DNA from: a virus
Length of the DNA stretch: 25,646 nt
Direction: 5' to 3' (one strand)
Virus record (IMG/VR): IMGVR_UViG_3300043409_000825
Span: 1-25,646 of that record
The notes beneath the pieces are model-generated. The model was not told the origin of the DNA, searched no databases, and worked only from the letters and a program-made list of their open reading frames with translations. Positions 2,572 to 24,936 of the stretch are shown here, piece by piece (position 1 is the first letter of the stretch; each line of letters begins with the position of its first letter). Made by a program: the position numbers and the translations under genes.

Positions 2572-3746
2572 GATGCGCCCTCCAATGCAATGCCTTTCAC
2601 GATCTCCATGCTGCCTTTGCTGGTTTCGGTAGCATTCAGCAGGACTTCGTCGACCAAGTTGTCGAGTGCTTTACCTTTCGCGCCGGTGCTCTGTTTGATG
2701 AGCGTCTTGACGCTACCGAGAGGGATCGAGCATTCAGCCGCAAATGCATCTCCGGTCACGCCGTGAGTCGAGAGACGACCAAAGACCGTAGTGACATCAC
2801 TGACGCTGCGCCGGCCTTTCTTTTCGCGCAGAGAGTAACCATCGATCTCGCCGGCGGCGATGCGCTTGCGAAGTTCAAGGTCATGAGCGACCAAGAACCA
2901 CTCCATGAACTTTCGACCATGCTCGTATGTTCGGACAAGCATTTCGTTGGACATTGCAGTATGATCACCCATGCGGGCAAATATCTGAGCCTTAACCTGG
3001 TCATCTGTGCCGGCTATTGTGTCAGGTTGGATCACTTCGGTGACATCCCAGGTTGCCTCTTGAAACGCAATGCATGACATCTTCGCTTTGCACCATTTGC
3101 AATGGTCGCCAGCGACCGCATCCGATGGTGTTGCTAGTTCAGCCATGTTCAGTGTGCTGATCATCGTGTTCTGAGCCAGCATCAATGCCTCGCTGTCGTA
3201 GTGCGCTACCGTTGGCTTGCCAGCCCAAGGCTGGATGATTGCGACTGCTGCTGTTTCAATCGGCCGATACATGGACACGAGTGCTGCCAGTGCCATCAGT
3301 TGGTGGTTGTCCACAGCATCCGCAGTTGTGCCGCGACCTGTCTTGTAGTCGAGGATCAAAGCAAATGTGCCGTCGATGATGATCACATCTGCCTGACCCG
3401 TGAAACGCAGGGCAATGCGAGCACCGTCTTTAACGACCACCACTTTACCAAACTGCGTCAGACCGAGACGGACTTCCTTCATGGTCACCACCTCTGGGTT
3501 GCTGATATATTGAGCGATCAATTCATCCGCATGGGCTTTGCACATGTCGTGCGTCTGCTCTTCATCTGCTGACAATGTGCTCATTTCAGCTTCGCCGGCT
3601 AGCACCGCATGTATGAGTGTCCCTGACGCTGCTGCTGGGCTTTCGGTGTCCTCCATGCCTAAAGACATTTGATGCGATGGTGGACAAGCTGAAAGCCTTT
3701 CAAATGCGCTTGCGCTGGGCAAGCCGTGACGTGGGTCGGTGATCAT
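2568..3746 (-). CDS. RecB/Cas4-type PD-(D/E)XK nuclease, DUF2800-like, probable Fe-S cluster
   Basis: 392 residues from the ATG at 3746, chosen because an AAAGGAGG ribosome binding site lies 8 bases upstream. A frame open back to 3923 lies inside the RecT-like gene and was not used. The N-terminus (PSASAFERLSACPPS, then SGTLIH with H46) matches the start of DUF2800/RecB-type nucleases. D120 and the D133-Y-K135 motif, followed by Q149, form the PD-(D/E)XK core. C21 together with C216-x2-C219-x5-C225 has the Cas4/AddB arrangement that binds a 4Fe-4S cluster. It is probably the exonuclease partner of the RecT-like annealase one base upstream, resecting DNA ends before strand annealing. Motifs were seen directly; pairing with the annealase is inferred from position. 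Confidence 0.88.
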   Translation of the reverse strand: MITDPRHGLPSASAFERLSACPPSHQMSLGMEDTESPAAASGTLIHAVLAGEAEMSTLSADEEQTHDMCKAHADELIAQYISNPEVVTMKEVRLGLTQFGKVVVVKDGARIALRFTGQADVIIIDGTFALILDYKTGRGTTADAVDNHQLMALAALVSMYRPIETAAVAIIQPWAGKPTVAHYDSEALMLAQNTMISTLNMAELATPSDAVAGDHCKWCKAKMSCIAFQEATWDVTEVIQPDTIAGTDDQVKAQIFARMGDHTAMSNEMLVRTYEHGRKFMEWFLVAHDLELRKRIAAGEIDGYSLREKKGRRSVSDVTTVFGRLSTHGVTGDAFAAECSIPLGSVKTLIKQSTGAKGKALDNLVDEVLLNATETSKGSMEIVKGIALEGAS

Positions 3747-3747
3747 A

Positions 3748-4683
3748 TTATTTGCCTCCTTTCTTTGCGAGGTCAGCGAGTTGGACGAAATTGTCGTCGA
3801 GGAACTTGAGCAACTCGGATCCTGCCTCGTTGATCGGGTAGTAATTCTCGCCGCCTTCGCCGTTTGCCTGCAAAGTCTCCAGCATAGTCGACCAATGGAT
3901 GCCGGCGGCATCGAGACGATCAATGATGCGATCGGTCAATGACTTGACCGGTTGCGCCTTGCTTTCCTCTTCAGCCTCCAGCTTCGCGATCTCAGCCTTG
4001 AAGACCGGCACATCTGGAATGTCCTTCGGTTCCTCCACCTTTTTTGGTTTCTCGATGAACAGTTTGCCGGCCTTTGCTGCGACCGGTGTGACATCGCGCA
4101 CAGCAGCATCTTGAGCCTCCTCTGCGGTAAGCATTCCCAGAGTGATGTCCGGTGCATATAGACGGGCAAAGAACGCAGCGGCGCGGTAGCGCAGCATGAG
4201 TTCAGGCATCGTGAGCCACTTGGATCCTGCCTTAGTGCTCCAGCCTTCGGCCTTTGCCATAGCAAGAGTGATCTTTGGCCCATCGAGGACAGTGCCGTCA
4301 TCTTTCGATTTTGACCAGGCGACACATGAGCGATCACCGGTGCCTTCGGTGCCTTCCATGCGGAATTGAAGAGGCTCAAATCGGCCAGAGGCATTGACCA
4401 TAGCGATCAGAAACGTGGCGCGGAATGATGGGCGACCGTGGATGATGTCCACGTTCTGAAGCACCATAAACGGGTCTGCACCGAGACGTTTGGCGATGCT
4501 GATGCCGATGGCACAATTGGCGATGTTGCCTTGGAACTCTTTGGGAACCAAGCTGGAAGATGCAAACATCTTGGCCTGACGTTGCAGCATGTCGAATGCT
4601 GCTGACTCCCGCTGAATTTGAACGTCTGTGATTTCTGTGGTGGTGATTTGTGTGCTCATTGTCGTTGTGTTTCGTTGGTTCAT
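3748..4683 (-). CDS. RecT-family single-strand annealing protein
   Basis: 311 residues. The start overlaps the upstream stop (ATGA) and has a GGCAGGGAA purine run before it; M9 (MSTQITTT) is an alternative. The core reads NCAIGISIAKRLGADPFMVL (residues 56-75), HGRPSFRATFLIAMVNASG (82-100) and the strongly conserved block LTMPELMLRYRAAAFFARLY (157-176) followed by PDITLGMLTAEE. These are hallmarks of RecT/Bet-type annealases of phage and prophage origin. A charged tail (residues about 200-260) and a helical C-terminal segment follow. It would anneal complementary single strands during phage recombination. The nuclease gene follows after a single base, the classic two-gene recombination unit. 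Confidence 0.92.
   Translation of the reverse strand: MNQRNTTTMSTQITTTEITDVQIQRESAAFDMLQRQAKMFASSSLVPKEFQGNIANCAIGISIAKRLGADPFMVLQNVDIIHGRPSFRATFLIAMVNASGRFEPLQFRMEGTEGTGDRSCVAWSKSKDDGTVLDGPKITLAMAKAEGWSTKAGSKWLTMPELMLRYRAAAFFARLYAPDITLGMLTAEEAQDAAVRDVTPVAAKAGKLFIEKPKKVEEPKDIPDVPVFKAEIAKLEAEEESKAQPVKSLTDRIIDRLDAAGIHWSTMLETLQANGEGGENYYPINEAGSELLKFLDDNFVQLADLAKKGGK
3755..3762 (-). promoter_or_regulatory. Strong ribosome binding site of the nuclease gene
   Basis: AAAGGAGG on the minus strand lies 8 bases ahead of the ATG at 3746 and inside the last codons of the RecT-like gene. It fixes the nuclease start. It also shows that the host translation system uses the standard anti-Shine-Dalgarno sequence. 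Confidence 0.85.
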
Positions 4684-6340: not shown

Positions 6341-6964
6341 TTAAAATACATCAGCACCGGCTGATTTGCGCCGGCGCATTTCTGCGAGCATCTCGCTTTC
6401 CTTCATGCCATTTGCCCATGTGGGTCGGAGCTGGAAGTGCGGTTGGTCTTGGATGGATGACCAATCGCCACCCCACTCAAAGCCAAGAGCTTTGCCGAGT
6501 TGCCCGACAGTCTTATAGCTTGGTGATTCGTCGAGATATTTACTGCCATCAGCCGAGAATACACCGACATCAAAAGCCACTCCAAAGTTGTGGTTACTGT
6601 AGCCGCCGCGAGCATTGGTGACGATCTTACCAGAAGACGTTCGGCCTTGCGCGTAGAGTGCATTCTGTTCGTCGTAAGTTCGCAGACCGGAGATCACCTT
6701 GATCTTGATGCCTGACGATGCTGCGCGTTGCACTAGTTGTCGCGCTTTGTCTTGGAGTCGTGGATGCAGAGTCGCGATCACACGTTCACTGCGCTCATCG
6801 ACCGTCTCGCCGGTGAAAGTGATCGTCGGCATAGGGTCTGGCTTTGGTTGCTCCTTTGCCGGCAAAGCCTTATCCAAAGCAGTAAGCGTGATGTTGCCTG
6901 GGTTGCCATCAGCAAACACTCCAAGTCGAGTCTGAACGAGTTTCGTGAAGTCGGTTGTATTCAT
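6341..6964 (-). CDS. Endolysin, M15 peptidase (L-alanyl-D-glutamate / VanY-type)
   Basis: 207 residues. The catalytic domain occupies about residues 60-180: SGLRTYDEQNALYAQGR (92-108), the zinc motif SNHNFGVAFD (123-132, ligands H125 and D132), WGGDW (164-168) and DQPHF (173-177) with D173 as the expected catalytic acid and H176 as third zinc ligand. This S-x-H-x-x-G-x-A-x-D plus D-x-x-H pattern is that of T5 endolysin and VanY/D-Ala-D-Ala peptidases, which cleave peptidoglycan peptides. The N-terminal 30 residues (FTKLVQTRLGVFADG) look like a shortened wall-binding segment. It has no signal peptide, so release would depend on a holin. It starts by ATGA overlap with the tiny upstream gene. 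Confidence 0.93.
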   Translation of the reverse strand: MNTTDFTKLVQTRLGVFADGNPGNITLTALDKALPAKEQPKPDPMPTITFTGETVDERSERVIATLHPRLQDKARQLVQRAASSGIKIKVISGLRTYDEQNALYAQGRTSSGKIVTNARGGYSNHNFGVAFDVGVFSADGSKYLDESPSYKTVGQLGKALGFEWGGDWSSIQDQPHFQLRPTWANGMKESEMLAEMRRRKSAGADVF

Positions 6965-8051: not shown

Positions 8052-8876
8052 TTAGGCTACTTTTACGGTTCCAGTGTCGTTCCAGAGTGCTCCGGTTGTG
8101 AGCCCAGCGGAAGAGGTTGGGAGAACCGGAATGATTTCACCGAGGGTATTGATGGTGAGGCGAGTGGTGAGCGTGCCAACCGTGTTAGACGATACTGAGG
8201 CTGCGTATGTCGCTAGGATTAGCGACCCGCCAACCCCGCCTTCACCCGTCGTCCCACGGCAGTTTCCTCCGCTCACGGTAAGATTTGCGCCAGCCCCGTT
8301 GCTTGTGATGCGGTTGCAGGCTTTGAAGTGCTGGTTTGTGACGCCTGCTGCATCGGTGCCGAGTTGCAGGCAGTAGGCTCCGCCACGTCGAATGACAGCA
8401 GCAGTTGCGTCCGCTCCAATAGCCATCGCACAGGAGTCATTATACAACTCCAGAATGTTTGCAGTGCTGTTGGCATAGATATTCCCCGCCCTGACATAAC
8501 CAGTCCCAGCAATGAGGCTTCCCTCTGTGGTAATTGATCCGTTGTTAGCGACGGAAACCTTGATAGCCCCATCCACTCGGAAATCAGTAAAATTACCAGA
8601 AGCGGCATCGAGGTTGATGCCAAATGCCGTTCCAGAAGTTGACCACCCAGTAGCAGCCGTTGCACCTGTTGGCTGAATAAGCCAATGAGGCATGGTCGTC
8701 GTGCCTGTGCCACCTGTGAAAATGGTGCCATTCAGCAGCATCGGCGGAGTGGATGCTGCGCCGTTGGTGGACTGGATCAACTGGCCTGTGAGCGTGCCGC
8801 CTGCGAGTGGCAGCTTGGTGGCATCGGAGCCGCCTCCACCCGATGATCCGAATGCAGAGATGAATGAGTTGCTCAT
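8052..8876 (-). CDS. Tail fibre / receptor-binding-type protein (274 aa)
   Basis: The start is placed at the ATG at 8874-8876, one base after the previous stop. An in-frame TTG twelve bases earlier is less likely. After a flexible glycine-rich stretch (FGSSGGGGSD) comes LPLAGGTLTGQLIQS, the repeat-type motif widespread in phage tail fibres. A long glycine, threonine and serine-rich beta region follows, and the C-terminus (VLPTSSAGLTTGALWND) is typical of fibre tips and fibre-like virion proteins. It would bind the host surface. It lacks the T7 gp17 N-terminal anchoring domain, so attachment may need the preceding small protein. Receptor unknown. Confidence 0.8.
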   Translation of the reverse strand: MSNSFISAFGSSGGGGSDATKLPLAGGTLTGQLIQSTNGAASTPPMLLNGTIFTGGTGTTTMPHWLIQPTGATAATGWSTSGTAFGINLDAASGNFTDFRVDGAIKVSVANNGSITTEGSLIAGTGYVRAGNIYANSTANILELYNDSCAMAIGADATAAVIRRGGAYCLQLGTDAAGVTNQHFKACNRITSNGAGANLTVSGGNCRGTTGEGGVGGSLILATYAASVSSNTVGTLTTRLTINTLGEIIPVLPTSSAGLTTGALWNDTGTVKVA

Positions 8877-8877
8877 A

Positions 8878-9138
8878 TTAGTTGTCAATCACAATGGACA
8901 CGCCCGTGGTTCCTGTTGCCGATTTGATGCTGATTTCTTTAGCGTTAGCCACGACGCTAATACCAACGGAGCCGCTCACCGGAATCGTGATTTCCTTGTT
9001 TGCGCCAGAGTCGCCGGCCATCTCAATAAGGAGCGTGCCAGATGTGCCGTTGAGGATCGAAACGCGAACTGCGGGAATGTCCGCCAAGGCGACATACGAA
9101 GCGGTTGCTGTTACAGAGCGGAATTGTGAAGCGGCCAT
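8878..9138 (-). CDS. Small beta-rich virion-type protein (86 aa)
   Basis: The whole protein is made of alternating hydrophobic strands with glycine and serine turns (VRVSILNGTSGTLLIEM; KEITIPVSGSVGISVVA), like a small beta sandwich. It has no cysteines and no charge clusters. Placed between the giant internal protein and the fibre-like gene, it may be a fibre adaptor or decoration protein; that is inference from position. A candidate promoter lies just upstream. Confidence 0.7.
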   Translation of the reverse strand: MAASQFRSVTATASYVALADIPAVRVSILNGTSGTLLIEMAGDSGANKEITIPVSGSVGISVVANAKEISIKSATGTTGVSIVIDN

Positions 9139-9191: not shown

Positions 9192-12100
9192 TTAATCTTC
9201 CTTGCCGTAGAATAGGGTTGAAGTGTCTTTGAAAACTCGATCGGCAATGCCTGGCGCAGATCCAGCCGGCGAAAATGGAGTGACCATCGCTCCCCCTGCC
9301 TTCATGATTTGCCATGCTCCACCGAGATAATCCTCATCTTCCATATTTTCTGGAAGTTTCTTGATGGATTGAAGGAATTGATCGGACATGTCAACCATTG
9401 GATTTGTCGAGGATCTCCAGTTCCTAGGCGCATCCTGCTTTTCTCCTGTGATTTTCTCAGCCGCAGCAGCAACTGCTGAAGAGATGAAGAATTCAGCCGC
9501 AGCACCAAGCAGGAACAATCCTTGCAAAGGCCCGACGATGGCAGCACGAATGAAGTTGTCGAGTTCCCACTCTTTGTCGTCGTCCTTGAATAACGACCGA
9601 GTGACAGCATTAGCGACTTGGAACATCAGCCCAGGAATTACCCAATAAGCCAAGACCTTTCGCATCGTCTCCTCGTTGGTTGCTCCTCCGCGCTTCCATT
9701 TCATCATTGCCTCACCTACGAGTCCAAGTTTTTGGCGAGGATCCGATGAGAACATGGAGAGCAAATTGAATACTCCGGTCGCATCATTCTCGATGAGAGA
9801 TCTACCAGACCAGTCATTTGGTTGAGCGGTTCGGCTCACGGCAATCTCCATTTCCCTCGATGCGTATTTGTGAGCAGCATCGTCGCCTGCGCCGGCATCC
9901 TTAGCTTGAGCAAACCGGTCACCATAGACCATTGCCGCCGAATACGATGTCAGCACGGCATCGGCGTATTGAGTCGGGACTGAACCAAACAAGAGCGCAT
10001 TCTCAATGAGTCTGAGCACTGCGTTCTTCGATTTGCCAGCATTCGACAAGATGTGCCTGATCTCAGGAGTGCCGCCAAGTGTGAGTCGATTTTGAATGAT
10101 GTTTGTGTCCCACATTTTGCCCCAATGTTCCACGCCTCGTGCAAATGCAGTCGGCCATCTCGTGATTGGTATTTCGCCCAGTGAATAGAACACGCTCGAA
10201 AGTGTCTTGATCGATGTGCCAACATTGAAAGCTAATGCCTTCATTGCCACTCCCGACTTCAGATTTCTCATCAATTTTGAGGAGTGGACTACCAATGCGC
10301 CTTTGCCAACACCTCGTGCCATTTCCAGTTGGATCCATGCGGACAGTGTTTGCATCGCTTCATTGCCATGCTCAGACCTGATCGCATTTTGCACATCTGC
10401 ATTGAGCATTACAGCCTGAGTATCGCGAAGATATTCAGCCATATGCACCCAGTAATCCATTTGGACAAAGTGCGATTGATACACTGCCAATGCGCTCTCG
10501 ATTCTCAGCGATGATGTGCGCCCGCGACGGGATTTCACTGCGCCAGGATTTACTGATTGGGAGACAACGCCAGAGTTTAATGGGTCAAGGCTAGCCTGAT
10601 TGCCCTGATGGTTTTTCAAAAGCGGAGCATAGAATTGAATCTGTGGCATTCTCGTGTGGAATAGCCTCATGAATACCTCGTTGGCTGTGGCATATTCGTT
10701 CGCATACTCTGCGCCGAACCATGCAAGCCAGTTCTTGGCATCGTCGCTCATGAATGCCTCAAGTTCAGTCTGGGTGATGTGATCGTAGCCATGCACCGAC
10801 TGCTGTTCAAGGATACCTGGCTGGCGCAATGCCATTGCCATGTATACTGCTTCCATTTGCGACAAAGGAATCTCGATGCGAGTGCCTGGAGTTTTGATCC
10901 TGTCGATGGTTAGATTGCGTTTGCGTGATGTCGGCAGGTTAGACCATGCGTCCATCTCGTCCTCCCACATCTGCGCCTCTTCGGCAGAGTAACCGAATGT
11001 GGATGGAGACTTGATGATGCGCTCAACTTCCTCAACGGTCTTCGTGTCGCTTTCCTTCTTCTCGCCTTCCATCTTGGTCACGCCACTGCGCTCAACTCTG
11101 CCTTCCATTTTCTCCAATTCGATGTCGAGACGAATCTTTGACTTGGTGCCGTAGAGAGTCCGCATGAAATCACGCAGGCTTTTCTTTCGTTCCGCTTGTT
11201 TTGTCTCAAACGCATTTATGCCAAGGATATTCTGCTCATCAAAGTGATCGGCAGTTTTATTGGATCGGCCAAAGACTGAAGATAGCACGAATCGATGCGA
11301 ACCTAACTCGCGAAGGAGTCCCTTCATTATGCCCTTTGTAGTGCCTTTGCCTTTATCTTTTCCTGCCTGCACTGTCGCTGCATTGGCCGCGCCGGCAAAC
11401 GCATCAGCCTTCGCCTGCTCGACCATCTTGGCAATCTCCGCAGCACGAGCCTCATCGATGATCTTGCGAGCATTGCGACCCTGTGTCATGAGATCTTTGA
11501 GATACTCGTGTGCCACGTCCATCTCTTCAGCAGTCGTCTGCTTGCCGTAGAGGTCACCGAAGACCTCAAGCAGTTGACTCTTGGCAAGCGAATCAGCAGC
11601 ATCTTCGGCGGTCTGTGCTGATATGATCTCAGCCTCATAACGTGCCGCCTCTTTGACCGTGTCATCAGTCGAAAGGCTTGCCATGTCGATGATCGTGTTC
11701 AGTTCGTCCTGCACGGTGACAATGAACTTCGACTTCGGAATCTCGCCGGCCTTGCCTTTTACAGAAGCAGATTCCAGCATTTTATCGATGCGTTCGCCAT
11801 ACTCCTTCTTCAGGTATCGCTCGACCGCTTTTTCCATCTTCGGAATGCGCTCCTCAATAAACTTGAGACGTGCCTCGTCGGAAGACAGTTTCACCAATGT
11901 TGATATGCTGCCAATAGTGCCGCGAATCTCGGTTGGCATTGATGACACAATTGCATCATGAAGCTGGATCCACCCATTGAGCTTATCCTTCAGCATTGCC
12001 GCCTTCGCTTGCTCTGGAGTAGTCTCTTTCTCAAGCGACTTCTTCACCCAGTCAGGAGTCTTGTCGGTGACCTTGCCGAGCTTTGCAATCCGACTTGCTT

Positions 12101-15100
12101 CCATCTCCGCGAGTTTGCGCTTTGCAGCACCTGGGCGACCCACATCGTAGAGTGCCTCACCTGAGATCGCTTGAGCACGCTTCAACGCCATCATGCCAAT
12201 CTTGAGCTTGGCATCAGGTGATCCTTCAAAGAGCGGGCGCAGCGACTGCTCTATTCGTCCAGTGAAGTCTGATCGGGAGATTGAGAAAGTTGGGCTAGTC
12301 GAAGAATATCTTCCCCGTCCTGTGCCAACAGAAGCGAGTCCATCACCTCCGCGAGTAATGTTTCCAATTCGTTTGGTGAGTTGGTTTCCAGTGAGTCCAT
12401 TTTTGAGTTCTTTCCTTGTTAGCGGTTTTGATTCCAGTTTCTTTAAATAGGCACCGTAGCTTTCGGGCGTTTCACCTGACTTCACAATCGAATAAGCCCA
12501 GAGCGCGGCTTGAACTTGCGATGGACTCCATCCGATTTCATTGGCTATCTTTGTGAGTATCTTTTCAGCCTTATCATATTGAGATTTGCTCGGAGTATCC
12601 ACACCGAAAAGCAGTCTCGCGATGTGCCGGTCAACGACCACTCTCGACAAATCACCTTCGTTGGCAGCAGTGTAGTTTGAGATCTTGCGACCTTTGGCGA
12701 CGAGATTGTCTTTGACCGCGTTGAGGTTTGAAATAACCGCTGGCAAATAACCGCTTTTAGCTTCGCCTCTCAATTTGCCATCGAATTCTTCACCGCGCAT
12801 CAGTTGTCCAAATGCTTTCAATGCCAGTCCAACATTAGCTTTTACGCTGGATGCTTGAGATGTAACCGACAAAATCTTTTGGAAAAGTTCAGCAGAATCA
12901 CCAAAGAATTCATCGAGCGTTTCCTTGTGCTCAGAATACCAGTCTTTCCACGAGGCTTGAGATAGCGCAGCATCAGTGAGTGCTTTCTTGGTAAGCAGGA
13001 CACGCAATGAATTCTTGCGGTTAGCTTTCTCCATCGAGAAATTGATGTCTGGCGATGCTTCGTTGAACCGTTGGCTGAGTGGGATGACGTTGCCTGCGTT
13101 GTCGTAGGTTACTGGGTCGGCGGATTTGATTTGTTTGTCAATTTTACCAACCTTTCCAAGAACAGTAGCTCCTCTCAATAGTGGTTCATTATCTCCGCCT
13201 GTTGTGTTATATGGATCAAGCATCCAACCAATTACATAATTGTCAGGCTTATCGAAGAGAGTTATGTCATACTGTCCGCCCTTGTTTTGATTTTCAGGCT
13301 TTAAAACCTCAATAACAGAAACTCCTTTTTCCTGAATATTTTCTCGCAAATTCTTACTTGTTCCATGTTCAGGAATCATACCTCTTCTTCTGGCAATGAC
13401 TAACTCAGGTTTTTTATTTCCAAGAACTCCTTCTATAAATACTTGGCCTTGATCATCGACATCTAACCATCTATCCCAATTTTCGGGCATAGATTCATCA
13501 TACAGTGCTGCATTCCAATTCACTTGAGAGTTTTCCGAAAACCCTTCTTGTGCGTGACCTTTCTCAATTAGAAGTTTTCTAATTCTTTGTCCGTAATCAT
13601 ACCCTTTAATTTCAGATGGAATTGGAATTTTATCTGTAACAAAAAGATTACCTACTCGATTGGGATACCTACCAACTTTTGCAGCCTCATCAACCAACCT
13701 CTGTGCCTTCTCCACGTCGCCGCTTTCGACTGCCGCAAGGTATTCGGCATCCTGCGCGGGAGTGATGGGGGAGATGGAGAAAGAAAGTGATTCGTTTACC
13801 GGATAATTCGTGTGCTGCTGACTGAGCATCTTTCCAGCAGTGGCAGGAAAAGTTTCATCAATGACGTTGTGCTTCATCATCCTCGCCACAGGCTTGCCCT
13901 TTAGAACATACTTGTAAGACAAGTGTTCTGGAACGCCTGCCTGCTCTGCTGTTTGAACCGACTCAGCTTCATCGAGTGGATCGAACCGAATAACGCCAAC
14001 CACCGATCCAGTTTTGACCCCCTTGAATGATTCCTCTTCGATGTTGCTAACGATGTCGATAGCATCAGGGAACCCTGCGTCTGCGTTTCGTTTAGACAGG
14101 AGAGCTTGATATGCAATCTTCTCGCCATCTGCTTTTGTGACGGTCTTGGTCTTTTGGAAGTAAGTGGCACCACGCTTCTTTTGCGGCATTCCAATGATAG
14201 CCTCCGCAGCCTCCTCAATAGTCTTCCACTTCTTTGTGTGACCCGTAGCTATCTCCGATTTAGGATGCTCCGCATACAATTCTCGAACACGGTTCAGTTC
14301 TGCAAGTGCCGCAGTCTTTGTGATGCGCTTATTACTGATGGACTCGTTCAGCAGTTTAAACCAAATCGTGCCAAAGGTTTTGTTGCCGATGACATTGCCT
14401 TCCTGCATCAAGATTAGCTTTACGAATCCGCCATTTTGCGCTGCTCGTCTTGCCACTCCTCGCGCAATGTTGTCGGCGTTGAATGCCCACACGACCCCAG
14501 CTTTTAGGTTCTCCACGATTGACGGGTAGAACATACCACCCTGCAAGGGAACGCCAGCAAACTCACCGACCTTCATTCGGTCGATGTGAATCGCAGCAAT
14601 CGTCTTCGTCTCTTTGTAGATTTCGTTTTTGATCTCCTCTGTGAATGGAGGAAATACTGTTGGCAGAAATGAAGGGGAAATAGAAAATGAAGTCTCCTCA
14701 GTCCACGGAATGGGATCACCCTCAGTCGGAAGGTCTTCGACTGGACTGTCTGGCGCAAGTTCTCCTGGCTCAGTCTGCGAATCATCTTCTTCTGCCTTTG
14801 GAGCAATCGAGAACGTGGTCGGCCCGACAAGCTGCGCCCCGTCTGGCATCTCGGTGATGTTGCTGGTGTCGGCGGGTTGTGCGCGGCTTGTGCTAAACGC
14901 TGCATCAGCACTACCCATCGAAAAATTAATGTCAGGCGATGCCTCGTTGAACCGCTCACTAAGTGGGATGACTTGGCCGGACTCGTCGCGGGTTACGGGG
15001 TCGGCGGATTTGATCTGGCTGGGATCAAAGACAAACCAATCGCGAGATTTTCCACGGTTTCCAGTGTAGGTTCCGCCCGCATAGCCGGCGGAAATCAAGG

Positions 15101-18100
15101 CATCGTTTGCCAACATTGGAGACGTTGCATCCTTGATCGCATTCCAAACGTCCTCGCCTACAACGGGGGTTCCGCTTTCTGCCTCGTCTGCAAATAGCGA
15201 TTCAATCGAATCTTTTGCATCCACGGTTTCCGCAATTTTCAGTGCTTCCGGTTTAGTAATCTGTGCGTCAGCGTCAAATAACGTGCCTGTTTTAAGCATG
15301 AATTGGCGAGCCTCCGCCTTGCCGAAACCTTTTGCCCTCTGAGCGGTGTTCGCTGCGTAAAATGCTGGGCCAAATAGTGCTTCCATATCAGCCTTTTGTG
15401 GGTCGTAAGCGTCCACCATACTGCCAGCGTGCCACGCCTGTACATCATATCCCGCCTTCTTCGCCGCCTCGTCCACCATGACCTGAGCCTTCGCCAAGTC
15501 GCCAGCCTTAGCAGCAGCGAGATACTCAGCGTCTTGCGCGGGTGTGACACGTCCCATGGACATTGACACGCCAGCGTCCGCAGCAAGGTCAGCAGCAGTG
15601 TCAACAACGGCATCGGCATTGCGATTGGATACATTCAGCCCAACGCTCTTTTCAAGCGCAGCGACGAAGTCCTGGTTGAGTCCGTTCGCATCGTGGATCG
15701 CTTTCAATTGAGCAGCGCGATAGAGAATGTTGAGCGTCTTTTCGCCAACAAGGTCGATAGCGTCTTTCAATTCCATGCCGGCAATGCTCGACTGGAGACT
15801 GCCAAGGTAGAGATTGAGCGGCATGTTAGGAGTGAAGGTCGGACGCTCGACTGCTTTCGTTGTCTGCACATAATACGACTTCGCGATGTGCGAGAATGCC
15901 TCAATGATTTCCATGTTGGAAACCTTGTCGTCATCAGTGGTGGCGATGAGAGGCATGTGCTTCTGACCCATCTGCATGGCCTGATCCTTCATCTTCGCTT
16001 CAACATCCCTGATTTGCAGGATCAGTTTTGTGCGACTTGTTGGGTCACTCATTAATCGCTTCACTCCGACTTCTGCGCTTTCCTCGATGAGGTCGAGAAG
16101 ACTGCCTCCTTTGTAAAGCGTGATGACTCCAACAGAGATTCCTTCACGTTGCTCAATTGAGTTTGTGCCGAGGATCCGGTAGTTCTTATTGTCGTTCGCT
16201 TCAGATTCAAGGGTTGCATTGTCGAGCGATACATCTTCAACTGCTCCATCAATTTGGCCTGTCAGCTTGATGCGCTCTTCGACTTGTGCGGTAGTCGATG
16301 GGAACAACTCGGTGAACTGTTTGGTGAACATGTCGTAGTCCATCATCAAGGCAACATCAAGACCCTGCTTTTCCTCCAAGGTATTAACCATTGATGTAAG
16401 GAATTCCTGCTCTGCTTTTCTGATGGTGATTCGACTGTTTTTCAGATATCGCATCCATGCTTCATTCGCTTCACTGAGTGAATCAAATTGTGCGCTGACT
16501 CCCTGATCAATGATATTGCCTTTGCCATCCTTCAGAATAGGAGTCGTAAACTGATACTTGCCATTGCCAATGTTTGCTGGAGTTCCAAGGCCAAAGTCCT
16601 GTCTGGCTTTGTTATGCCATTCAAGTGCCGCTGATTCTCTGATGTTGATTTTTCTTTTAGCTTCCTTGATCTGCTCTGGCGTTGCTTTATTGCCTTTGTC
16701 GAAACCTTTGCGGAACAGTTTATCGACTTCAGTGTAGTTGCCCTTCAAGCCTTCAACTGTGATCTGGTTGGCTAAGTCAGGAGCAATGCCTGATTTTACC
16801 ATATAGTCAGGCGATGTCATCAATGCGCGTGAGTTCTTCACGTCTGCAATCGAGATTCTGCCTGCCATGAGGAATGACACGATTAGTGCCGGCCCAAATG
16901 TCTGCTCTGCAATGTCCGCGATCTTCGGCATGCGCTCATCCCAGTCAGCTTTCGAGATTCCGCTTTCGATTGACCATGCAGATTGCCACTCAGAAAGCAG
17001 ATCTTGGGTGAGCAAAGGTGTCGCAGTCTGCATGACCTCTTCAGAGATCTCGGTCACCGTCCCGATTGCAGTGCGTGTTGCAACACGGATTGCTGCGCTC
17101 TTAACACTAGTTGTTGCAGCTTTGAGCCATTTGTCGATAAATGGAATCTTGATCTTTCCTAGCGGCAAAGCATTTGAGATGAATTCCTGAGTTGCCATAA
17201 ACGGTGCCGAAATAGCACCGACAACCTCTGCGTTCTCAAATGACACTCCTGCGTTTACTGCCTCAATAGTTGCCTCATCCCTGAACTGACCTGTCATGAT
17301 AGCAATCGACGCAGGGCTACTAATGAATGTCGCTGCCAGCAACGGAGTCATGCGTGCGACTCCGATGCCGGTTTCCTCCCACCAATTATTGCCGGCGATA
17401 GGATTGATTTTGCTGTGTGCCATCATCTTTACCTGGCCGGCTAAGACTTGGAGTTCTCGACGATTTTTGGCAACATCTACAATTCCCTGCATCTCAGGGA
17501 TGTTTTGATACAATGAAATTGCTTGTGATGTCAGCATCGACTCAGCCAATGACGCAGTGCCAGTGACTGCTTTTTCAACCTCTCGATCCATTGCAGTTGC
17601 CAGTTTCTGTAGATATGCCTGCTTCTCTTTTGGTGCAGCAGCACCCACTTCACCGATGGCATTGATCACAAGCAACCGCTCCTTTGGCGGCAATGGCAAA
17701 AGACTTTCAGCCACCTTTGTAAACGCATCAGATACGCCTTCAGCTTTCGTATCATATCCTTCAATGGTATTCGCCGCTTGATCAATGATCGTGCGGTATG
17801 GCGCAAGTCTCTGCGTGTATTCAAAGTGTATATTGCCAATCGAATCATAGTAGTCTTTTACACGACCAGCAACAGGCGAGCCGGTTAATCCCACGTCAAA
17901 TTCATTCATTGCGCTAATGGCTGTAAGATTGCGAGCCGCCGCGCTAAAGGCCAGGTTGTGAGCATTGTCCTCAGCTTTGTAGTTTTCTCTGATAAGGTTG
18001 TAAAACTCATCATTGGTGACACTCTTCTTTGGCAATTTAAAGACCTGCTGGGCATACGCATCCTGATAAGCTGGAAGCGTCAGACTAAAGTAATCGACAG

Positions 18101-18383
18101 GCTTTTTTTCTTGTCGAGATAGCCAAGCTGTATTGGCAGCACCTTTCTTGACGCTTGCAATCTCTTCAGGTGCCGACCCGAAACCGGCCATGATATCATC
18201 ATTAATCTTAACGCCTTCAATCGTGTCTGTCGTAAACGCTTTCTTAATGCCTTTATCTACCTTCAAATCTTCAGCTTGGAAGTATTCATCAAGAGCGGTT
18301 GCCATCTTGAACTTCTCACCATCAGGAACCGATGGATCTTCAATGCCTAATGCAAATTCCTTGGCTTTTGTTTCGTCAATCAT
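9192..18383 (-). CDS. Giant 3063-aa polyvalent internal virion protein (T7 gp16 position)
   Basis: One intact frame of 9.2 kb. Residues 1-940 are mostly helical, with hydrophobic patches near 350-370. Residues 945-1156 form an ADP-ribosyltransferase-like module: TPAQDAEYLAA arm, WHAGS at 984-988, FY at 1008-1009, and VFDPSQIKSADP from 1118, giving an H-Y-Q candidate active site. Residues 1237-1530 are an unrecognised module with YKYVLKGKPVARM. Residues 1541-1784 repeat both arms of the first module around a different core. Residues 1785-2020 hold VVVDRHIARLLFG and SPSQVQAALWAY, which I recall from phage polyvalent proteins. Residues 2030-2450 are charged and helical. The C-terminal 600 residues include two hydrophobic segments (about 2910-2932 and 2947-2978), as in C-terminal domains of large polyvalent proteins. 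Its place after gp14- and gp15-like genes implies ejection with the DNA; this is inferred. Confidence 0.85.
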   Translation of the reverse strand: MIDETKAKEFALGIEDPSVPDGEKFKMATALDEYFQAEDLKVDKGIKKAFTTDTIEGVKINDDIMAGFGSAPEEIASVKKGAANTAWLSRQEKKPVDYFSLTLPAYQDAYAQQVFKLPKKSVTNDEFYNLIRENYKAEDNAHNLAFSAAARNLTAISAMNEFDVGLTGSPVAGRVKDYYDSIGNIHFEYTQRLAPYRTIIDQAANTIEGYDTKAEGVSDAFTKVAESLLPLPPKERLLVINAIGEVGAAAPKEKQAYLQKLATAMDREVEKAVTGTASLAESMLTSQAISLYQNIPEMQGIVDVAKNRRELQVLAGQVKMMAHSKINPIAGNNWWEETGIGVARMTPLLAATFISSPASIAIMTGQFRDEATIEAVNAGVSFENAEVVGAISAPFMATQEFISNALPLGKIKIPFIDKWLKAATTSVKSAAIRVATRTAIGTVTEISEEVMQTATPLLTQDLLSEWQSAWSIESGISKADWDERMPKIADIAEQTFGPALIVSFLMAGRISIADVKNSRALMTSPDYMVKSGIAPDLANQITVEGLKGNYTEVDKLFRKGFDKGNKATPEQIKEAKRKINIRESAALEWHNKARQDFGLGTPANIGNGKYQFTTPILKDGKGNIIDQGVSAQFDSLSEANEAWMRYLKNSRITIRKAEQEFLTSMVNTLEEKQGLDVALMMDYDMFTKQFTELFPSTTAQVEERIKLTGQIDGAVEDVSLDNATLESEANDNKNYRILGTNSIEQREGISVGVITLYKGGSLLDLIEESAEVGVKRLMSDPTSRTKLILQIRDVEAKMKDQAMQMGQKHMPLIATTDDDKVSNMEIIEAFSHIAKSYYVQTTKAVERPTFTPNMPLNLYLGSLQSSIAGMELKDAIDLVGEKTLNILYRAAQLKAIHDANGLNQDFVAALEKSVGLNVSNRNADAVVDTAADLAADAGVSMSMGRVTPAQDAEYLAAAKAGDLAKAQVMVDEAAKKAGYDVQAWHAGSMVDAYDPQKADMEALFGPAFYAANTAQRAKGFGKAEARQFMLKTGTLFDADAQITKPEALKIAETVDAKDSIESLFADEAESGTPVVGEDVWNAIKDATSPMLANDALISAGYAGGTYTGNRGKSRDWFVFDPSQIKSADPVTRDESGQVIPLSERFNEASPDINFSMGSADAAFSTSRAQPADTSNITEMPDGAQLVGPTTFSIAPKAEEDDSQTEPGELAPDSPVEDLPTEGDPIPWTEETSFSISPSFLPTVFPPFTEEIKNEIYKETKTIAAIHIDRMKVGEFAGVPLQGGMFYPSIVENLKAGVVWAFNADNIARGVARRAAQNGGFVKLILMQEGNVIGNKTFGTIWFKLLNESISNKRITKTAALAELNRVRELYAEHPKSEIATGHTKKWKTIEEAAEAIIGMPQKKRGATYFQKTKTVTKADGEKIAYQALLSKRNADAGFPDAIDIVSNIEEESFKGVKTGSVVGVIRFDPLDEAESVQTAEQAGVPEHLSYKYVLKGKPVARMMKHNVIDETFPATAGKMLSQQHTNYPVNESLSFSISPITPAQDAEYLAAVESGDVEKAQRLVDEAAKVGRYPNRVGNLFVTDKIPIPSEIKGYDYGQRIRKLLIEKGHAQEGFSENSQVNWNAALYDESMPENWDRWLDVDDQGQVFIEGVLGNKKPELVIARRRGMIPEHGTSKNLRENIQEKGVSVIEVLKPENQNKGGQYDITLFDKPDNYVIGWMLDPYNTTGGDNEPLLRGATVLGKVGKIDKQIKSADPVTYDNAGNVIPLSQRFNEASPDINFSMEKANRKNSLRVLLTKKALTDAALSQASWKDWYSEHKETLDEFFGDSAELFQKILSVTSQASSVKANVGLALKAFGQLMRGEEFDGKLRGEAKSGYLPAVISNLNAVKDNLVAKGRKISNYTAANEGDLSRVVVDRHIARLLFGVDTPSKSQYDKAEKILTKIANEIGWSPSQVQAALWAYSIVKSGETPESYGAYLKKLESKPLTRKELKNGLTGNQLTKRIGNITRGGDGLASVGTGRGRYSSTSPTFSISRSDFTGRIEQSLRPLFEGSPDAKLKIGMMALKRAQAISGEALYDVGRPGAAKRKLAEMEASRIAKLGKVTDKTPDWVKKSLEKETTPEQAKAAMLKDKLNGWIQLHDAIVSSMPTEIRGTIGSISTLVKLSSDEARLKFIEERIPKMEKAVERYLKKEYGERIDKMLESASVKGKAGEIPKSKFIVTVQDELNTIIDMASLSTDDTVKEAARYEAEIISAQTAEDAADSLAKSQLLEVFGDLYGKQTTAEEMDVAHEYLKDLMTQGRNARKIIDEARAAEIAKMVEQAKADAFAGAANAATVQAGKDKGKGTTKGIMKGLLRELGSHRFVLSSVFGRSNKTADHFDEQNILGINAFETKQAERKKSLRDFMRTLYGTKSKIRLDIELEKMEGRVERSGVTKMEGEKKESDTKTVEEVERIIKSPSTFGYSAEEAQMWEDEMDAWSNLPTSRKRNLTIDRIKTPGTRIEIPLSQMEAVYMAMALRQPGILEQQSVHGYDHITQTELEAFMSDDAKNWLAWFGAEYANEYATANEVFMRLFHTRMPQIQFYAPLLKNHQGNQASLDPLNSGVVSQSVNPGAVKSRRGRTSSLRIESALAVYQSHFVQMDYWVHMAEYLRDTQAVMLNADVQNAIRSEHGNEAMQTLSAWIQLEMARGVGKGALVVHSSKLMRNLKSGVAMKALAFNVGTSIKTLSSVFYSLGEIPITRWPTAFARGVEHWGKMWDTNIIQNRLTLGGTPEIRHILSNAGKSKNAVLRLIENALLFGSVPTQYADAVLTSYSAAMVYGDRFAQAKDAGAGDDAAHKYASREMEIAVSRTAQPNDWSGRSLIENDATGVFNLLSMFSSDPRQKLGLVGEAMMKWKRGGATNEETMRKVLAYWVIPGLMFQVANAVTRSLFKDDDKEWELDNFIRAAIVGPLQGLFLLGAAAEFFISSAVAAAAEKITGEKQDAPRNWRSSTNPMVDMSDQFLQSIKKLPENMEDEDYLGGAWQIMKAGGAMVTPFSPAGSAPGIADRVFKDTSTLFYGKED
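13031..13130 (-). repeat. Direct repeat copy B, 3' arm of the chimeric module
   Basis: These 100 bases align without gaps to 14915-15014; by hand count about 83 bases match. They encode the module ending (QIKSADPVTYD, VIPLSQRFNEASPDINFSM) that closes the second ART-like module of the giant protein. Confidence 0.85.
13134..13676 (-). other. Exchanged core inside the second ART-like module
   Basis: This part of the giant gene encodes about residues 1570-1750. It lies exactly where the ART-like core sits in the first module, but it shares no WHAGS or FYAA motif with it. Its AT content is higher than its surroundings (two sampled 60-base lines gave roughly 58 and 65 percent by hand). Visible sequence includes DYGQRIRKLLIEKGHAQEG, ELVIARRRGMIPEHGTSK and YVIGWMLDPYNTTGGDN. 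I do not recognise the domain. Confidence 0.6.
13677..13763 (-). repeat. Repeat copy B, 5' arm of the chimeric module
   Basis: Encodes TPAQDAEYLAAVESGD through VDEAAK (residues 1541-1569). It matches residues 947-975 at about 22 of 29 positions by hand count. Bases differ at many third positions, so the duplication is not recent. Confidence 0.8.
14915..15014 (-). repeat. Direct repeat copy A, 3' arm of the ART-like module
   Basis: Gap-free partner of 13031-13130. It encodes QIKSADPVTRD and VIPLSERFNEASPDINFSM, the conserved tail that usually ends polyvalent-type ADP-ribosyltransferase modules. Confidence 0.85.
15459..15545 (-). repeat. Repeat copy A, 5' arm of the ART-like module
   Basis: Encodes TPAQDAEYLAAAKAGD through VDEAAK (residues 947-975), homologous to the arm at 13677-13763. 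Here it is followed by a complete ART-like core with WHAGS and FYAA. Confidence 0.8.
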
Positions 18384-21048: not shown

Positions 21049-24000
21049 TTATCTTCCAGCCCCCGATGTGCCGTCGATCTCAACGTCCAATATCATGCCG
21101 GTGAGATTAAATGGCAGAGGATGCTTCGATGCGATCACGATGTCTAAGCAGTTGCCCCAGTCGTGGTTCACAGCGTCAGGCAATGTCTGACCGGTGACAT
21201 AACCGGTGGTGGTCGCAGTGAGTGATGGTGATACTGGGAACGCATCGATGTTGTCGATATTGATGCGAGTGCTGTAGGTGTAATCTGCACCTGACAATCT
21301 ATTCCAGACCTGACCGTAGAATGAGCGAAACAGTCGGAATGCTGCACGAGCAACTCTCCATCTCCTCATCTGAGCGGTGCCGTCACGAAGCTGGATCTCG
21401 ACTCTGTTCGGAATGATGTATGCAACATAAGGAAGACCGACATTCATTGTAGCATTTGTGGCAGACCCAACAAACGTCACTGTACTTGCGCCGGCGGTAG
21501 CTTCGATTGGTGCTCCAGCAGTAGTCACCGCCGATGTGCCGAGAATGAGTGATCGACTTGTTAGGTTAGCATTAGCTGAAACGGTATAGGTTGTCCCTGT
21601 CGAAGTCAGTATGCTGTAGCAATCGCAAAAGAACCCTGCTTTGCCGGTTGAATGTTGCGTGTCTGATGCTGATTGATAGTTCACATCTGATGACGTAACT
21701 GCGGCAATCATGATGGAACCATCGATGGACTCAAGGTTGATGGTTCCGCTTTTGCGGTTTGTCAGGAAGATGAGCGAATCTGCCGCAGTCGAGGATGAGT
21801 AGAGCGTGCAGAGCGACAAAATCTTGTCGCCGGTAAATGTCCGGTGCGAATGCCAGGCTGTGACCGAGTTCTCACGATCATAGGTGAATCCGCTCCATGA
21901 ACCGTCAGAATGCACAAGCCAGACAATCGGGTCAGGTGACTGCGAGTAAGTTATGTATTCAACTGTTGATCTGCTTGGGATGTGTTCCGCGAGCAGCATC
22001 ATGTCTGGCGCAGAGTAACCATCCTTCTCAAAGACGTAGGCAAACTCACGCAAACGGTCGTCTCGTGTCAACCACAGCAGGGAGTCGCCTGAAAGAACAG
22101 GCTGATGGTGCGACGAGCCATATCGACTCCACCTGCGAAGTCTGATATTCGCTGGCGTTAAAGCCGAGTCGGTGTCGCCGGTGTCTAGCGTCCACTCCTC
22201 GCCGCTCGTGCCGATGACCATCGTGCGCTTGAATGATGCCAACCACTGGATTTCATTCGCCTGAGTAGCCGCAAGCGTCATATCAATCGCACTCGTGTCG
22301 AGCGCACCGGTCAGGAATGTGTAGAAGTCATCCGTCTGACTCCCCCAGATGCGGGTCGGTTCCGTCGATGTCGATGCAAAGAATAAACGCTGATCGTGGA
22401 AAGCTACAGTCCGAGGATACCCACGAGAAACTGAGAATGCCGACTTCTGCCAAATAGCGAAGTCGCTTCCAAGGACTTCGTTCGGAATCAATGAGTTCAC
22501 TGCAAGTTGCGGAACTCCGATGAATTGATACGGAGTCGAAGATGAATATGTATTGAGAATGAATGGTATTTTAAGAATGCCATTCACTGGCTCAAGCGTC
22601 ATTCTTGCTAATGTTGCTGCAACTACTGGACGTATTGTTGATGCACGATACCATCCTCCAGTGTTTGGGGCAGTGCCTGAATAGGATATTGTCCCTTCAT
22701 TAATATCATTTATGTACCACTCACGGAGTGTTGAGTAATTAACCTGATCAAGCGATTCCTCTATGTGAACTGTAGTTAAAACGGGAGCAGAACCAGATGC
22801 CCATGTGGTTCTAAAGATAAACTCATTCTGAATAAACACGGATGAACTTGTTATTGTTCCAGGGGTGCCAGTTCCCATTATCTCATTGGCAAACCTCTTC
22901 GTTGAGCTTGGGGAGAGTAACCAGTTTGCGCCAATTTCATCAGCACTGAATGTTGTGCTCAAACTACTAATCAGCCTGTAATTAGTAATCTGGAGTCCGC
23001 TGCTTTTGTAGTTTACGCGAACCCATGCAGGAGTTGCCCCATCAGGAGCATTTGCCGCAGTTGCAGCACCGGCCGTGATGCACACATAGTTGCTTGCTTG
23101 GTATTCAGCGATTTGGCCAAACGCATAAGTTGTCCCAAGGTTCCATGATGACGTGTAGGTCGCTTCCGTCCAGTCAGCGGTCTTGAATATGTTAGCAGTC
23201 GATGTCGTTGCTGATTCATAGACAAAAGTGCGGATGTAAGATGAACTAGTTGTGACGTAAAATGCCCCAGTTGCAGCGGTGTAGGTTGCTGGTAAGCTTG
23301 ATCCCGATGAATCAAGTTGAAATACATCATCAGTAATTTTAGTAATGACGCTTGTAATGTTTGCAAGCGTTGCGCCACCAACACCATAAACCGTTACTGT
23401 ATCGCCGGTGCTTAAACCGTGACCAACAGAAGTAATGCGAATCTTGCTACTTACGATAGCAGCACCTGTGATTGCCTGCGTGAATGGCAGCGTGACAATG
23501 TTCCCTTTGGTGTAGGTTGAACTCGTGTTCCAGTCGTCTGCATTATACAGCAGGCGCATCGTCGTAGCATCCTTTGGCGCATCGAGCACAGGCGCAAAAT
23601 CAAATGGCACATCGACAAATGTCCACGTCCCGTCGCTATTCCTCGTCAAACGCTTTGGATGCTTGGTCGAGCAGGTGAAGAACATCACGTCATTCAATTG
23701 GACGTAGTGCAACAATGGAATCTCTGTGGACGTGTAGTCGGTCGTGACGGTAGTCACCGAGGTGAATGCGCCAGCGGTGTAGGAATACACCACGATTGAG
23801 TCTACTTTGAAGGCAAGCACAAAGTTTACGTCAGTGCTGCGCCTGAACGGGATAACTCTCAAGATGCCGCTATCTGTCACTCCAAACCTTGTGCCAGGCC
23901 GTTTGAACGCTCCACCGTAGGAGCGCACCATGAAGTTTTCGAGCATGCGACATCCTGTTGCATACTTTTCAGAATCGGTTCTGCCATCCATGATCGGTGA

Positions 24001-24051
24001 CATTTCGCCACCGTTGAAGACTGCTTTGATCGTTTGAATCTGTGAACTCAT
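21049..24051 (-). CDS. Tail nozzle protein, T7 gp12 (tubular protein B)-like (1000 aa)
   Basis: The N-terminus carries the family signature: FNGGEMSPIMDGRTDSEKY (12-30), CRMLENF and YGGAFKRPGTRFG (45-57). Further on are HDQRLFFASTSTEPTRIWGS with DDFYTFLTG, and WLASFKRTMVIGTSGEEWTL, both standard for gp12-like nozzles that form the tip of the short tail. At 1000 residues it is longer than T7 gp12 (794). Part of the extra length is a beta insert at about 194-268 with GHGLSTGDTVTVYGVGG, similar to one in the adaptor protein. The middle of the gene is AT-richer than its ends. It starts by ATGA overlap with the adaptor gene. Confidence 0.92.
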   Translation of the reverse strand: MSSQIQTIKAVFNGGEMSPIMDGRTDSEKYATGCRMLENFMVRSYGGAFKRPGTRFGVTDSGILRVIPFRRSTDVNFVLAFKVDSIVVYSYTAGAFTSVTTVTTDYTSTEIPLLHYVQLNDVMFFTCSTKHPKRLTRNSDGTWTFVDVPFDFAPVLDAPKDATTMRLLYNADDWNTSSTYTKGNIVTLPFTQAITGAAIVSSKIRITSVGHGLSTGDTVTVYGVGGATLANITSVITKITDDVFQLDSSGSSLPATYTAATGAFYVTTSSSYIRTFVYESATTSTANIFKTADWTEATYTSSWNLGTTYAFGQIAEYQASNYVCITAGAATAANAPDGATPAWVRVNYKSSGLQITNYRLISSLSTTFSADEIGANWLLSPSSTKRFANEIMGTGTPGTITSSSVFIQNEFIFRTTWASGSAPVLTTVHIEESLDQVNYSTLREWYINDINEGTISYSGTAPNTGGWYRASTIRPVVAATLARMTLEPVNGILKIPFILNTYSSSTPYQFIGVPQLAVNSLIPNEVLGSDFAIWQKSAFSVSRGYPRTVAFHDQRLFFASTSTEPTRIWGSQTDDFYTFLTGALDTSAIDMTLAATQANEIQWLASFKRTMVIGTSGEEWTLDTGDTDSALTPANIRLRRWSRYGSSHHQPVLSGDSLLWLTRDDRLREFAYVFEKDGYSAPDMMLLAEHIPSRSTVEYITYSQSPDPIVWLVHSDGSWSGFTYDRENSVTAWHSHRTFTGDKILSLCTLYSSSTAADSLIFLTNRKSGTINLESIDGSIMIAAVTSSDVNYQSASDTQHSTGKAGFFCDCYSILTSTGTTYTVSANANLTSRSLILGTSAVTTAGAPIEATAGASTVTFVGSATNATMNVGLPYVAYIIPNRVEIQLRDGTAQMRRWRVARAAFRLFRSFYGQVWNRLSGADYTYSTRINIDNIDAFPVSPSLTATTTGYVTGQTLPDAVNHDWGNCLDIVIASKHPLPFNLTGMILDVEIDGTSGAGR

Positions 24052-24899
24052 AGTGAATAACCTCCGCGAGAAAGGACAACCTGAGAGTCATCAAACGGAG
24101 TGATGCGCCGGCCTTTTCCCTCGTTGGCATCTCGTGACTTCACCGGTGGTGCTGCTGCCTTCGTAAAAAACTGATGAAGCTCGATTGCTCGACCACTGCT
24201 TCCGGCTGTGTCAGAAGCGATATATGAGGCGAGCAGATAGCTGAATGCCGTCACAAAATCAGCGGGATAGCTTGGAATCGTCGTGATACGTTGGATGTAT
24301 TTCAGATTGATCGTCTCGTCATCGCAAAGGATCAGTCCTTTTTCGAGCAGGAAATCAGATCCATCGTCTTCATTCTGTCCACCGTCAGCATTGATCGACA
24401 ATGGGCGCAGACAATCAGCCGGTGGCGTATGCTGGAAGTCGTAAGCAAACTGAGGAATGCCAACAACGGATCCGGTGCCGCTCGTGTAGGTTCCAGCAAA
24501 CACGGAATCGTCGAGCGTGAAATCATTGCCAGATACGGTGACATACCATTGGCCATTGGCAGAAGTAACACCGGCGACATCCTTCACATAAACTCGATCA
24601 CCGGTCGAATAGCCATGACCTGGATGCGTGATCTTGATCAACCCACTGGAATTGGTAACGGCTGTGCCGGTCAACGTGTGATACGTCACAGTTTGACGTT
24701 TACGGGCAGTGGCGAAATTCCATGGATGTGCTCGCAGCGTTTCATCGAGTGCAGTGTAGACAGGAGTTCCACCTTCAGGATTCCACCATTTACGAAGGCT
24801 CACAGCCTGCTGTGTGCTGTCGGTTGACAGTGCTGTCAGTGCTCGTCCACCCAAGTGGGCAATTGCCAGATTCGCGATCTCGGTTGCTGTTGCTGCCAT
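24048..24899 (-). CDS. Head-tail adaptor, T7 gp11 (tubular protein A)-like (283 aa)
   Basis: The start is placed at the ATG at 24897-24899. An in-frame GTG at 24917 lies at the edge of the terminator's T run and is unlikely. The N-terminal helix ATEIANLAIAHLGGRALTAL and ALDETLRAHPWNFATARKR (50-68) are the hallmark of gp11-like adaptors that join portal to tail nozzle. Residues about 74-147 (HPGHGYSTGDRVYVKDVAG, NGQWYVTVSGNDF) look like an inserted beta domain of the E1-FCCH-like type common in phage tail proteins. This accounts for the size beyond T7 gp11 (196 residues). DFVTAFSYLLASYIAS follows, also usual for the family. Confidence 0.9.
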   Translation of the reverse strand: MAATATEIANLAIAHLGGRALTALSTDSTQQAVSLRKWWNPEGGTPVYTALDETLRAHPWNFATARKRQTVTYHTLTGTAVTNSSGLIKITHPGHGYSTGDRVYVKDVAGVTSANGQWYVTVSGNDFTLDDSVFAGTYTSGTGSVVGIPQFAYDFQHTPPADCLRPLSINADGGQNEDDGSDFLLEKGLILCDDETINLKYIQRITTIPSYPADFVTAFSYLLASYIASDTAGSSGRAIELHQFFTKAAAPPVKSRDANEGKGRRITPFDDSQVVLSRGGYSL

Positions 24900-24908
24900 A
24901 GTAGTGGG

Positions 24909-24936
24909 ATAATACACAAAAAGCGGAGAAGTGCAA
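24909..24936 (-). promoter_or_regulatory. Candidate promoter embedded in the terminator
   Basis: On the minus strand TTGCAC (24931-24936) and TATTAT (24909-24914) lie 16 bases apart, each 5 of 6 bases from the sigma70 consensus. Both fall inside or just after the terminator hairpin. A transcript would start near 24902, only a few bases before the adaptor ATG, making it almost leaderless. No ribosome binding site is visible there, which fits. Confidence 0.4.

Follow-up and report, generated by a model that had tools for sequence, protein, structure and literature searches.

Paired arms around different cores in a giant phage protein: a probable frame for domain exchange

A viral DNA stretch of 25,646 nucleotides (IMG/VR record IMGVR_UViG_3300043409_000825, positions 1 to 25,646, hereafter the window) encodes on its minus strand a giant protein of 3063 residues, in which two modules begin and end alike and carry different cores in between. 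The question raised by this locus is what keeps the ends, called here the upstream (5') and downstream (3') arms, so similar around such different cores. The arms could be a cassette frame within which effector domains are exchanged by recombination, as the first-pass annotation of this DNA had supposed; they could also be the ends of one fast-diverging enzyme family, passengers of modules that move whole, or the seat of some other DNA- or RNA-level function. The analysis presented below makes it likely that both modules are effector cassettes open to exchange, with constant arms and a replaceable domain, in a giant and probably ejected protein. The coordinates of all features are collected in Table 1.

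The arms and the cores between them

The upstream arm, which ends in VDEAAKxAGY, is predicted to fold as a helical hairpin, and both modules carry its motif TPAQDAEYLAA...VDEAAK; the downstream arm is marked by the motif QIKSADPVTYD..GNVIPLSQRFN..DI.FS. The match of about 83 in 100 bases noticed earlier between the 3' arms was reproduced, since positions 13031-13133 and 14915-15017 are 83% identical across 103 nt. No other direct repeat in the 10 kb around it comes close, the next best covering 32 nt at 72%. The 5' arms have their motif in common at the protein level and are just 65% identical in DNA. As to the extent of the modules, the span of module 2 (residues 1541-1784), the end of module 1 (residue 1156) and the nucleotide coordinates stood as first annotated, and only the start of module 1 had to be moved from residue 945 to 947.

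Core 1, which contains the motifs WHAGS and FYAA, matched the Pfam family ART-PolyVal (PF18760) weakly (E 0.035; 15.3 bits, where the cut-off is 31.2). The AlphaFold2 model of module 1, based on an alignment of 62 framed modules of the ADP-ribosyltransferase (ART) type, reached a predicted local distance difference test score (pLDDT) of 89.9, and the arms folded jointly with the core at pLDDT near 98 and 93-95. In Foldseek this model matched viral ART-PolyVal proteins from uncultured phages (E 1e-13), and there was a weak match to tankyrase catalytic (ART) domains. The best matches among solved structures were the cyanophage A4 pre-ejectosome protein 9k3a (E 6e-5) and the anti-CRISPR protein 6kyf (E 1e-3), with low identity (11-12%) and partial TM-scores of 0.34-0.43 by query. 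The second of them, 6kyf, is AcrIF11, which as an ART inactivates a Cas protein. By its predicted fold module 1 is an ART, in agreement with the earlier assignment of its core and tail; once ejected, it would modify a host or defence protein.

Core 2 is, by sequence, of a different kind. It could not be aligned with core 1 by sequence or profile, and its comparison with the profile of framed ART cores gave an hhalign probability of 0.3% (ART profile E 4.2); the earlier view that the two cores are unrelated thus survived a comparison in which they might have aligned as one fold. It is also AT-richer, as had been remarked: across its borders GC changes from 0.369 in the core to 0.47-0.49 in the flanks, and GC at third codon positions from 0.24 to 0.46-0.54. 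Relatives of core 2 were found in L001 (83%), in L079 (by profile) and, weakly, in L055 and L122 (the C-terminal half of a domain); all of them sit between arms, which are degenerate in L055 and L122 as judged by eye. Named phages, GTDB species genomes, Pfam and PHROGs yielded no match to the core 2 sequence, the PDB no credible match to the single sequence or the profile, and tblastn with the L079 core nothing credible in phages or plasmids. PDB matches of core 2 to a polyphosphate kinase and a tailspike were judged to be chance, and a streptavidin match of the core-2-like domain of L055 was rejected (short stretch, mostly E 0.14-0.3). An AlphaFold2 model from three sequences had a pLDDT of 36.9 and was set aside. 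On sequence comparison core 2 is a member of a rare family without a relative of known function; it may have arrived as a rare cassette from an AT-richer source, and its position would suit a host-directed effector.

The same arms were next to be looked for in other phages, as the first annotation had proposed, and they occur there around many different cores. When IMG/VR was scanned with module 2, 25 loci came up, almost all of which had the arms around other cores; with each arm alone as the query the total rose to 151 unique framed cores. A downstream arm followed within 450 residues in all 88 upstream arms having enough sequence after them, and 80 of 84 downstream arms were partnered by an upstream arm. 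Because the pair recurs in many other phages, a chance resemblance of the arms is excluded. The ART profile recognised 128 of the 151 cores at E<1e-3, with 8 doubtful and 15 unrecognised, and the ART-PolyVal profile (PF18760) matched 68 of 127 framed cores at E<=0.01.

These figures, together with the joint folding of arms and core at high confidence, are what would be expected if the arms were the conserved ends of a single ART family whose core diverges very fast in an arms race, with no exchange at all. The non-ART cores in the same arms argue against this. Apart from core 2 they include a GNAT acetyltransferase in L087 (Pfam 24.7 bits, above the curated cut-off of 20.7) and the core of L050, which has a weak Pfam ASCH match and is probably an ASCH domain. 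Since the same arms enclose GNAT, ASCH-like and core 2 domains, they are more than the ends of one enzyme family.

Two further kinds of framed core were seen. A recurrent family beginning [MLI]SH[RK] (L032:10094-10438, L034:10094-10438, the L069_483 core and L097:10550-10921) is not ART by profile, and its member in L032 has no Pfam match. The last residues of the 98-residue core at L123:9692-9985, YYESLGFVKKGKDMV, look like the end of a GNAT acetyltransferase; Pfam gives no match to this core.

Core swaps and the DNA of the arms

Swap pairs were defined as modules on different contigs with homologous flanking DNA outside the arms and different cores. There were 26 such pairs; identical cores had been collapsed before the count, and the ratio of 26 to 2 overstates how frequently cores differ. 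In the pair L010 and L014 the 1500 nt upstream are 98% identical and the cores, of 243 and 167 residues, have no similarity. In L050 and L072 the flanks are 83-95% identical around the ASCH-like core and another core, respectively. The window has swap partners of its own: upstream of module 1 it is 96% identical to L108 over 1500 nt and 82% to L123, and the cores at this site (site 1) in L108 and L123 differ from that of the window and from each other. Related phages do not always carry the core pair of the window, for L108 and L123/L124, with backbones 80-98% identical, have another core at site 1 and are missing module 2. Taken with the many cores found in the same arms, the swap pairs support the reading of the arms as a cassette frame.

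The same pairs bear on the fast divergence of one ART family considered above. Cores without detectable similarity in backbones 90-98% identical are too abrupt a change for divergence, and L050/L072 place a candidate non-ART core in a backbone that elsewhere holds an alternative one. Core composition is also unlike that of the backbone: in 92% of 140 modules the core had less GC than the flanks (p 2e-21, which holds with one module per cluster). Divergence without exchange is accordingly an unlikely account of the locus.

Exchange could also proceed by illegitimate recombination of whole modules, the arms being passengers with no guiding role. The pairing of the arms in almost every case would follow from it, and short FS-type tags at the outer ends of modules coincide with some breakpoints. 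L124, for instance, lacks module 2 and resumes its match to the window at the FSM codons (FSMEKAN) after its downstream arm, and L108 differs throughout from the end of module 1 to the FSIS tag at 12276-12287. At site 1, however, the upstream arm tracks the backbone (91% to L108, 85% to L123) and the core does not, identity between the window and its relatives staying high through the upstream arm and dropping at the arm's inner end. Movement of whole modules further predicts cores that share DNA among unrelated phages as the arms do, and none do. We regard it as quite improbable.

The arms are indeed alike in DNA between phages that otherwise are not. In blastn comparisons of the window with L016, L145, L102 and L042 the arms were the sole nucleotide similarity, up to 96% over 71 bp. 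The downstream arm of module 1 has a 43-nt exact run in common with L016, an otherwise dissimilar phage, and that of module 2 matches L145 over about 71 bp at 96% and L003 over 70 bp at 94%. An exact 26-nt box of the downstream arm was present, in frame, in 48 viral stretches, and its 21-nt form in several Clostridia-type genomes.

Conservation at synonymous positions was measured on modules from 46 flank-similarity clusters, one from each, and with loci collected by protein patterns only; back-translated patterns could bias the codons, and loci found by DNA pattern were left out. The ratio of observed to expected codon identity in the downstream arm was 3.1 for Ser7 (TCC), 1.9 for Ala8, 2.2 for Thr12 and 1.7 for Tyr13, and in the upstream arm 1.6-1.9 for Ala20, Gln21, Val24 and Ala27-28. 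The excess peaks at the inner ends of the arms, beside the core, even between phages otherwise dissimilar in DNA. Most outer arm codons were near 1, Leu9 in the upstream arm (1.77) being an exception, and the conserved core codons (motifs HGT, GYDG and NP) gave 0.95-1.13, except the Thr of HGT (1.39). The strongest signal includes codons beyond the patterns (Thr12, Tyr13 and Gly17 of the downstream arm), and some codons within them show none (Leu22 and Ser23 of the downstream arm, Asp5 and Val12 of the upstream arm). As synonymous positions in the arms do not follow the codon usage of each phage, the arms are more than parts of a protein.

Conservation so sharp and local might serve some other purpose at the DNA or RNA level, such as an overlapping gene, an RNA structure or the site of a site-specific recombinase. 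Of the antisense and shifted frames, though, none runs without a stop through the arms of every module, and none does so through the cores, so an overlapping gene was rejected; an inverted-repeat recombination site at the borders was rejected likewise, the inner boxes of the two arms being unrelated both directly and as inverted repeats (p 0.18 and 0.15). Such a function is a very improbable source of the conservation.

The DNA box of the downstream arm is shared, too, by framed ART modules in gut Clostridia genomes or prophages (L239 and L241-L244; Oscillospiraceae, Ruminococcus, Clostridia).

The giant protein and a proposed route of exchange

Table 1. Features of the window (positions in nucleotides; residues are those of the giant protein)
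Feature	Position	Strand	Evidence or remark
Single-strand DNA-binding protein	1217-1642	minus	Pfam SSB E 4.7e-16
RusA-like Holliday junction resolvase	1937-2302	minus	PHROG 34 E 1.1e-15
PD-(D/E)XK exonuclease (DUF2800)	2568-3923	minus	Pfam E 1.2e-32; PHROG exonuclease E 7e-36
RecT-like single-strand annealing protein	3748-4683	minus	PHROG 561 E 9.5e-79; Pfam RecT E 3e-4
Giant internal-virion/polyvalent-type protein, 3063 residues, bears both modules	9192-18383	minus	Open reading frame confirmed; close to tail tubular protein genes
FSIS tag closing the variable region; conserved C-terminal backbone starts	12276-12287	minus	Common to L108, L123, L124
DUF7178-like domain, residues 1814-1963	12495-12944	minus	Pfam E 2.2e-5, slightly below curated cut-off
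Module 2 downstream (3') arm, residues 1749-1784	13032-13139	minus	
Module 2 core (core 2), about 177 residues	13140-13670	minus	AT-rich; GC 0.369
Module 2 upstream (5') arm, residues 1541-1571	13671-13763	minus	
Middle domain (approximately residues 1237-1534), with an FSIS tag on either side	13782-14675	minus	No Pfam match
Module 1 downstream (3') arm, residues 1120-1156	14916-15026	minus	
Module 1 core (core 1), predicted ART fold	15027-15446	minus	Pfam, AlphaFold2, Foldseek
Module 1 upstream (5') arm, residues 947-979	15447-15545	minus	Predicted helical hairpin
Tail tubular protein B-like gene	21049-24051		Upstream of giant gene in transcription order
Tail tubular protein A-like gene	24048-24917		Upstream of giant gene in transcription order

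The gene layout appears podovirus-like, and a giant internal virion protein would be expected at this place. The protein holds several unrelated domains within its 3063 residues (ART, core 2, the middle domain and a DUF7178-like domain), as polyvalent proteins do, and is probably injected into the bacterial host; the structural match of the module 1 model to an ejectosome protein is merely suggestive regarding its packaging and injection. The DUF7178-like domain was found in L123-L126 and is missing from L108. Homologues of the middle domain occur in L159, L166, L174 and L039, and distant ones in L123-L126; since the first four are otherwise different phages, the middle domain is also mobile. 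The gene following the giant one (8052-8888) has no Pfam or PHROG match, and a VanY/M15-type endolysin is encoded at 6341-6964.

Tags of the FSIS or FSM type recur at domain borders of the giant protein (13770-13781, 14676-14687 and others). Among the framed modules, [FYML]S-type tags lay within 20 residues upstream in 44% and downstream in 55%, against a background of 11-13%. Other lineages repeat another tag per protein: FSSP six times in L032, NYSI five times in L096, RFQP four times in L088 and QPRD six times in L107. The FSIS/FSM tags are possibly processing sites or linkers.

The window also encodes a RecT-like annealing protein, an exonuclease, a RusA-like resolvase and a single-strand DNA-binding protein, a set that is a plausible engine for core exchange. 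The annealing protein Red-beta of phage lambda needs a minimal perfect match of 23-27 bp and is effective to about 17% divergence (PMC3945230). The arms fit this range, being about 100 nt long, with the 3' arms of the window 83% alike and exact runs of up to 38-43 nt with other phages. In the route that we propose, the arms would stay constant as a frame, and the domain that they enclose would be replaced as related or unrelated phages recombine. Recombination would run through the arms: co-infecting phages or resident prophages would recombine there and trade one domain in frame, by a short-homology process driven by the phage's own RecT-type annealer, exonuclease and RusA. What keeps the arms alike may be homogenisation by the exchange itself or selection for ends that can be exchanged.

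A more far-reaching form of this proposal is that the arms are a dedicated exchange frame at the DNA level, constant at synonymous positions, through which phages of otherwise unrelated genome could pass individual effector domains to one another, in frame and by annealing-type recombination, within proteins that are ejected; many phages would in effect draw on one effector pool. This we put forward tentatively, as somewhat less than an even chance.

Several points weigh against exchange through the arms. It is deduced from the comparison of sequences, and both the role of a recombinase at the arms and the ejection of the giant protein are predictions. Just about 3% of unrelated pairs have an exact run of at least 23 nt in a given arm. 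Between the two modules of the window the exact runs are just 17 nt in the downstream arm and 8 nt in the upstream arm; because these runs are so short, trade with other phages is likelier than trade between the window's own modules. Some breakpoints lie at FS tags instead of arms, as in L124 (FSMEKAN). As 128 of the 151 cores belong to one superfamily, much of the diversity could be fast ART divergence with conserved ends.

Relation to known systems

In phages and conjugative elements alike, polyvalent proteins show extensive domain mosaicism, and cassette recombination has been suggested for kinase loci, according to the part of that account considered here (Iyer et al. 2017, PMC5512222). 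The protein of the window is likewise a phage protein of giant size with several domains; its injection is predicted, and one of its domains is of predicted ART-PolyVal type (PF18760). It differs in the two-sided frame around different cores and in the conservation of the border DNA, neither of which was found in the same part of that account (PMC5512222).

In polymorphic toxins, as far as the portion consulted describes them, effector domains are replaced through recombination behind a constant delivery part (PMC3482391). Variable domains are likewise swapped here against a constant part (26 swap pairs). Polymorphic toxins, however, swap the C-terminal tip, usually together with an immunity gene, whereas the slot described here is internal and followed by a conserved C-terminal backbone, and no immunity gene was identified with it; the slot is framed on both sides and, unlike the toxin tip, can occur more than once per protein.

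Red/RecT-driven mosaicism of phages through relaxed homologous recombination has been described at the scale of genomes (De Paepe et al. 2014, PMC3945230). The window is similar in having a RecT-like annealer, an exonuclease and RusA, and arms whose length and divergence suit Red-beta, but its homology blocks lie within one reading frame and flank single domains. Fragments within the proteins of phages are also known to have been shuffled recently (Smug et al. 2023, PMC10684548), and in contrast to the present case neither polyvalent, internal-virion or ejection proteins nor a flanking frame were found in the part of that study considered. Integron-like site-specific cassette systems have inverted-repeat sites at their borders, whereas the inner boxes of the arms show none. 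A two-sided internal frame with DNA-conserved borders was not found in the open-licence literature, in the portions of it covered, and an earlier description elsewhere is possible.

Phages face very varied host defences upon entry. If the proposal is true, the great diversity of polyvalent proteins would be accounted for by a constant frame in which phages of unrelated genome trade single injected domains. The arms would also serve as a search handle for effector or counter-defence domains that resemble nothing known, core 2 and the rest of the non-ART cores among them. Judged by the portions of the literature cited above, the mosaicism of polyvalent proteins and the swapping of toxin tips are already known (PMC5512222, PMC3482391), and what this locus apparently adds to them is the two-sided frame conserved in DNA.

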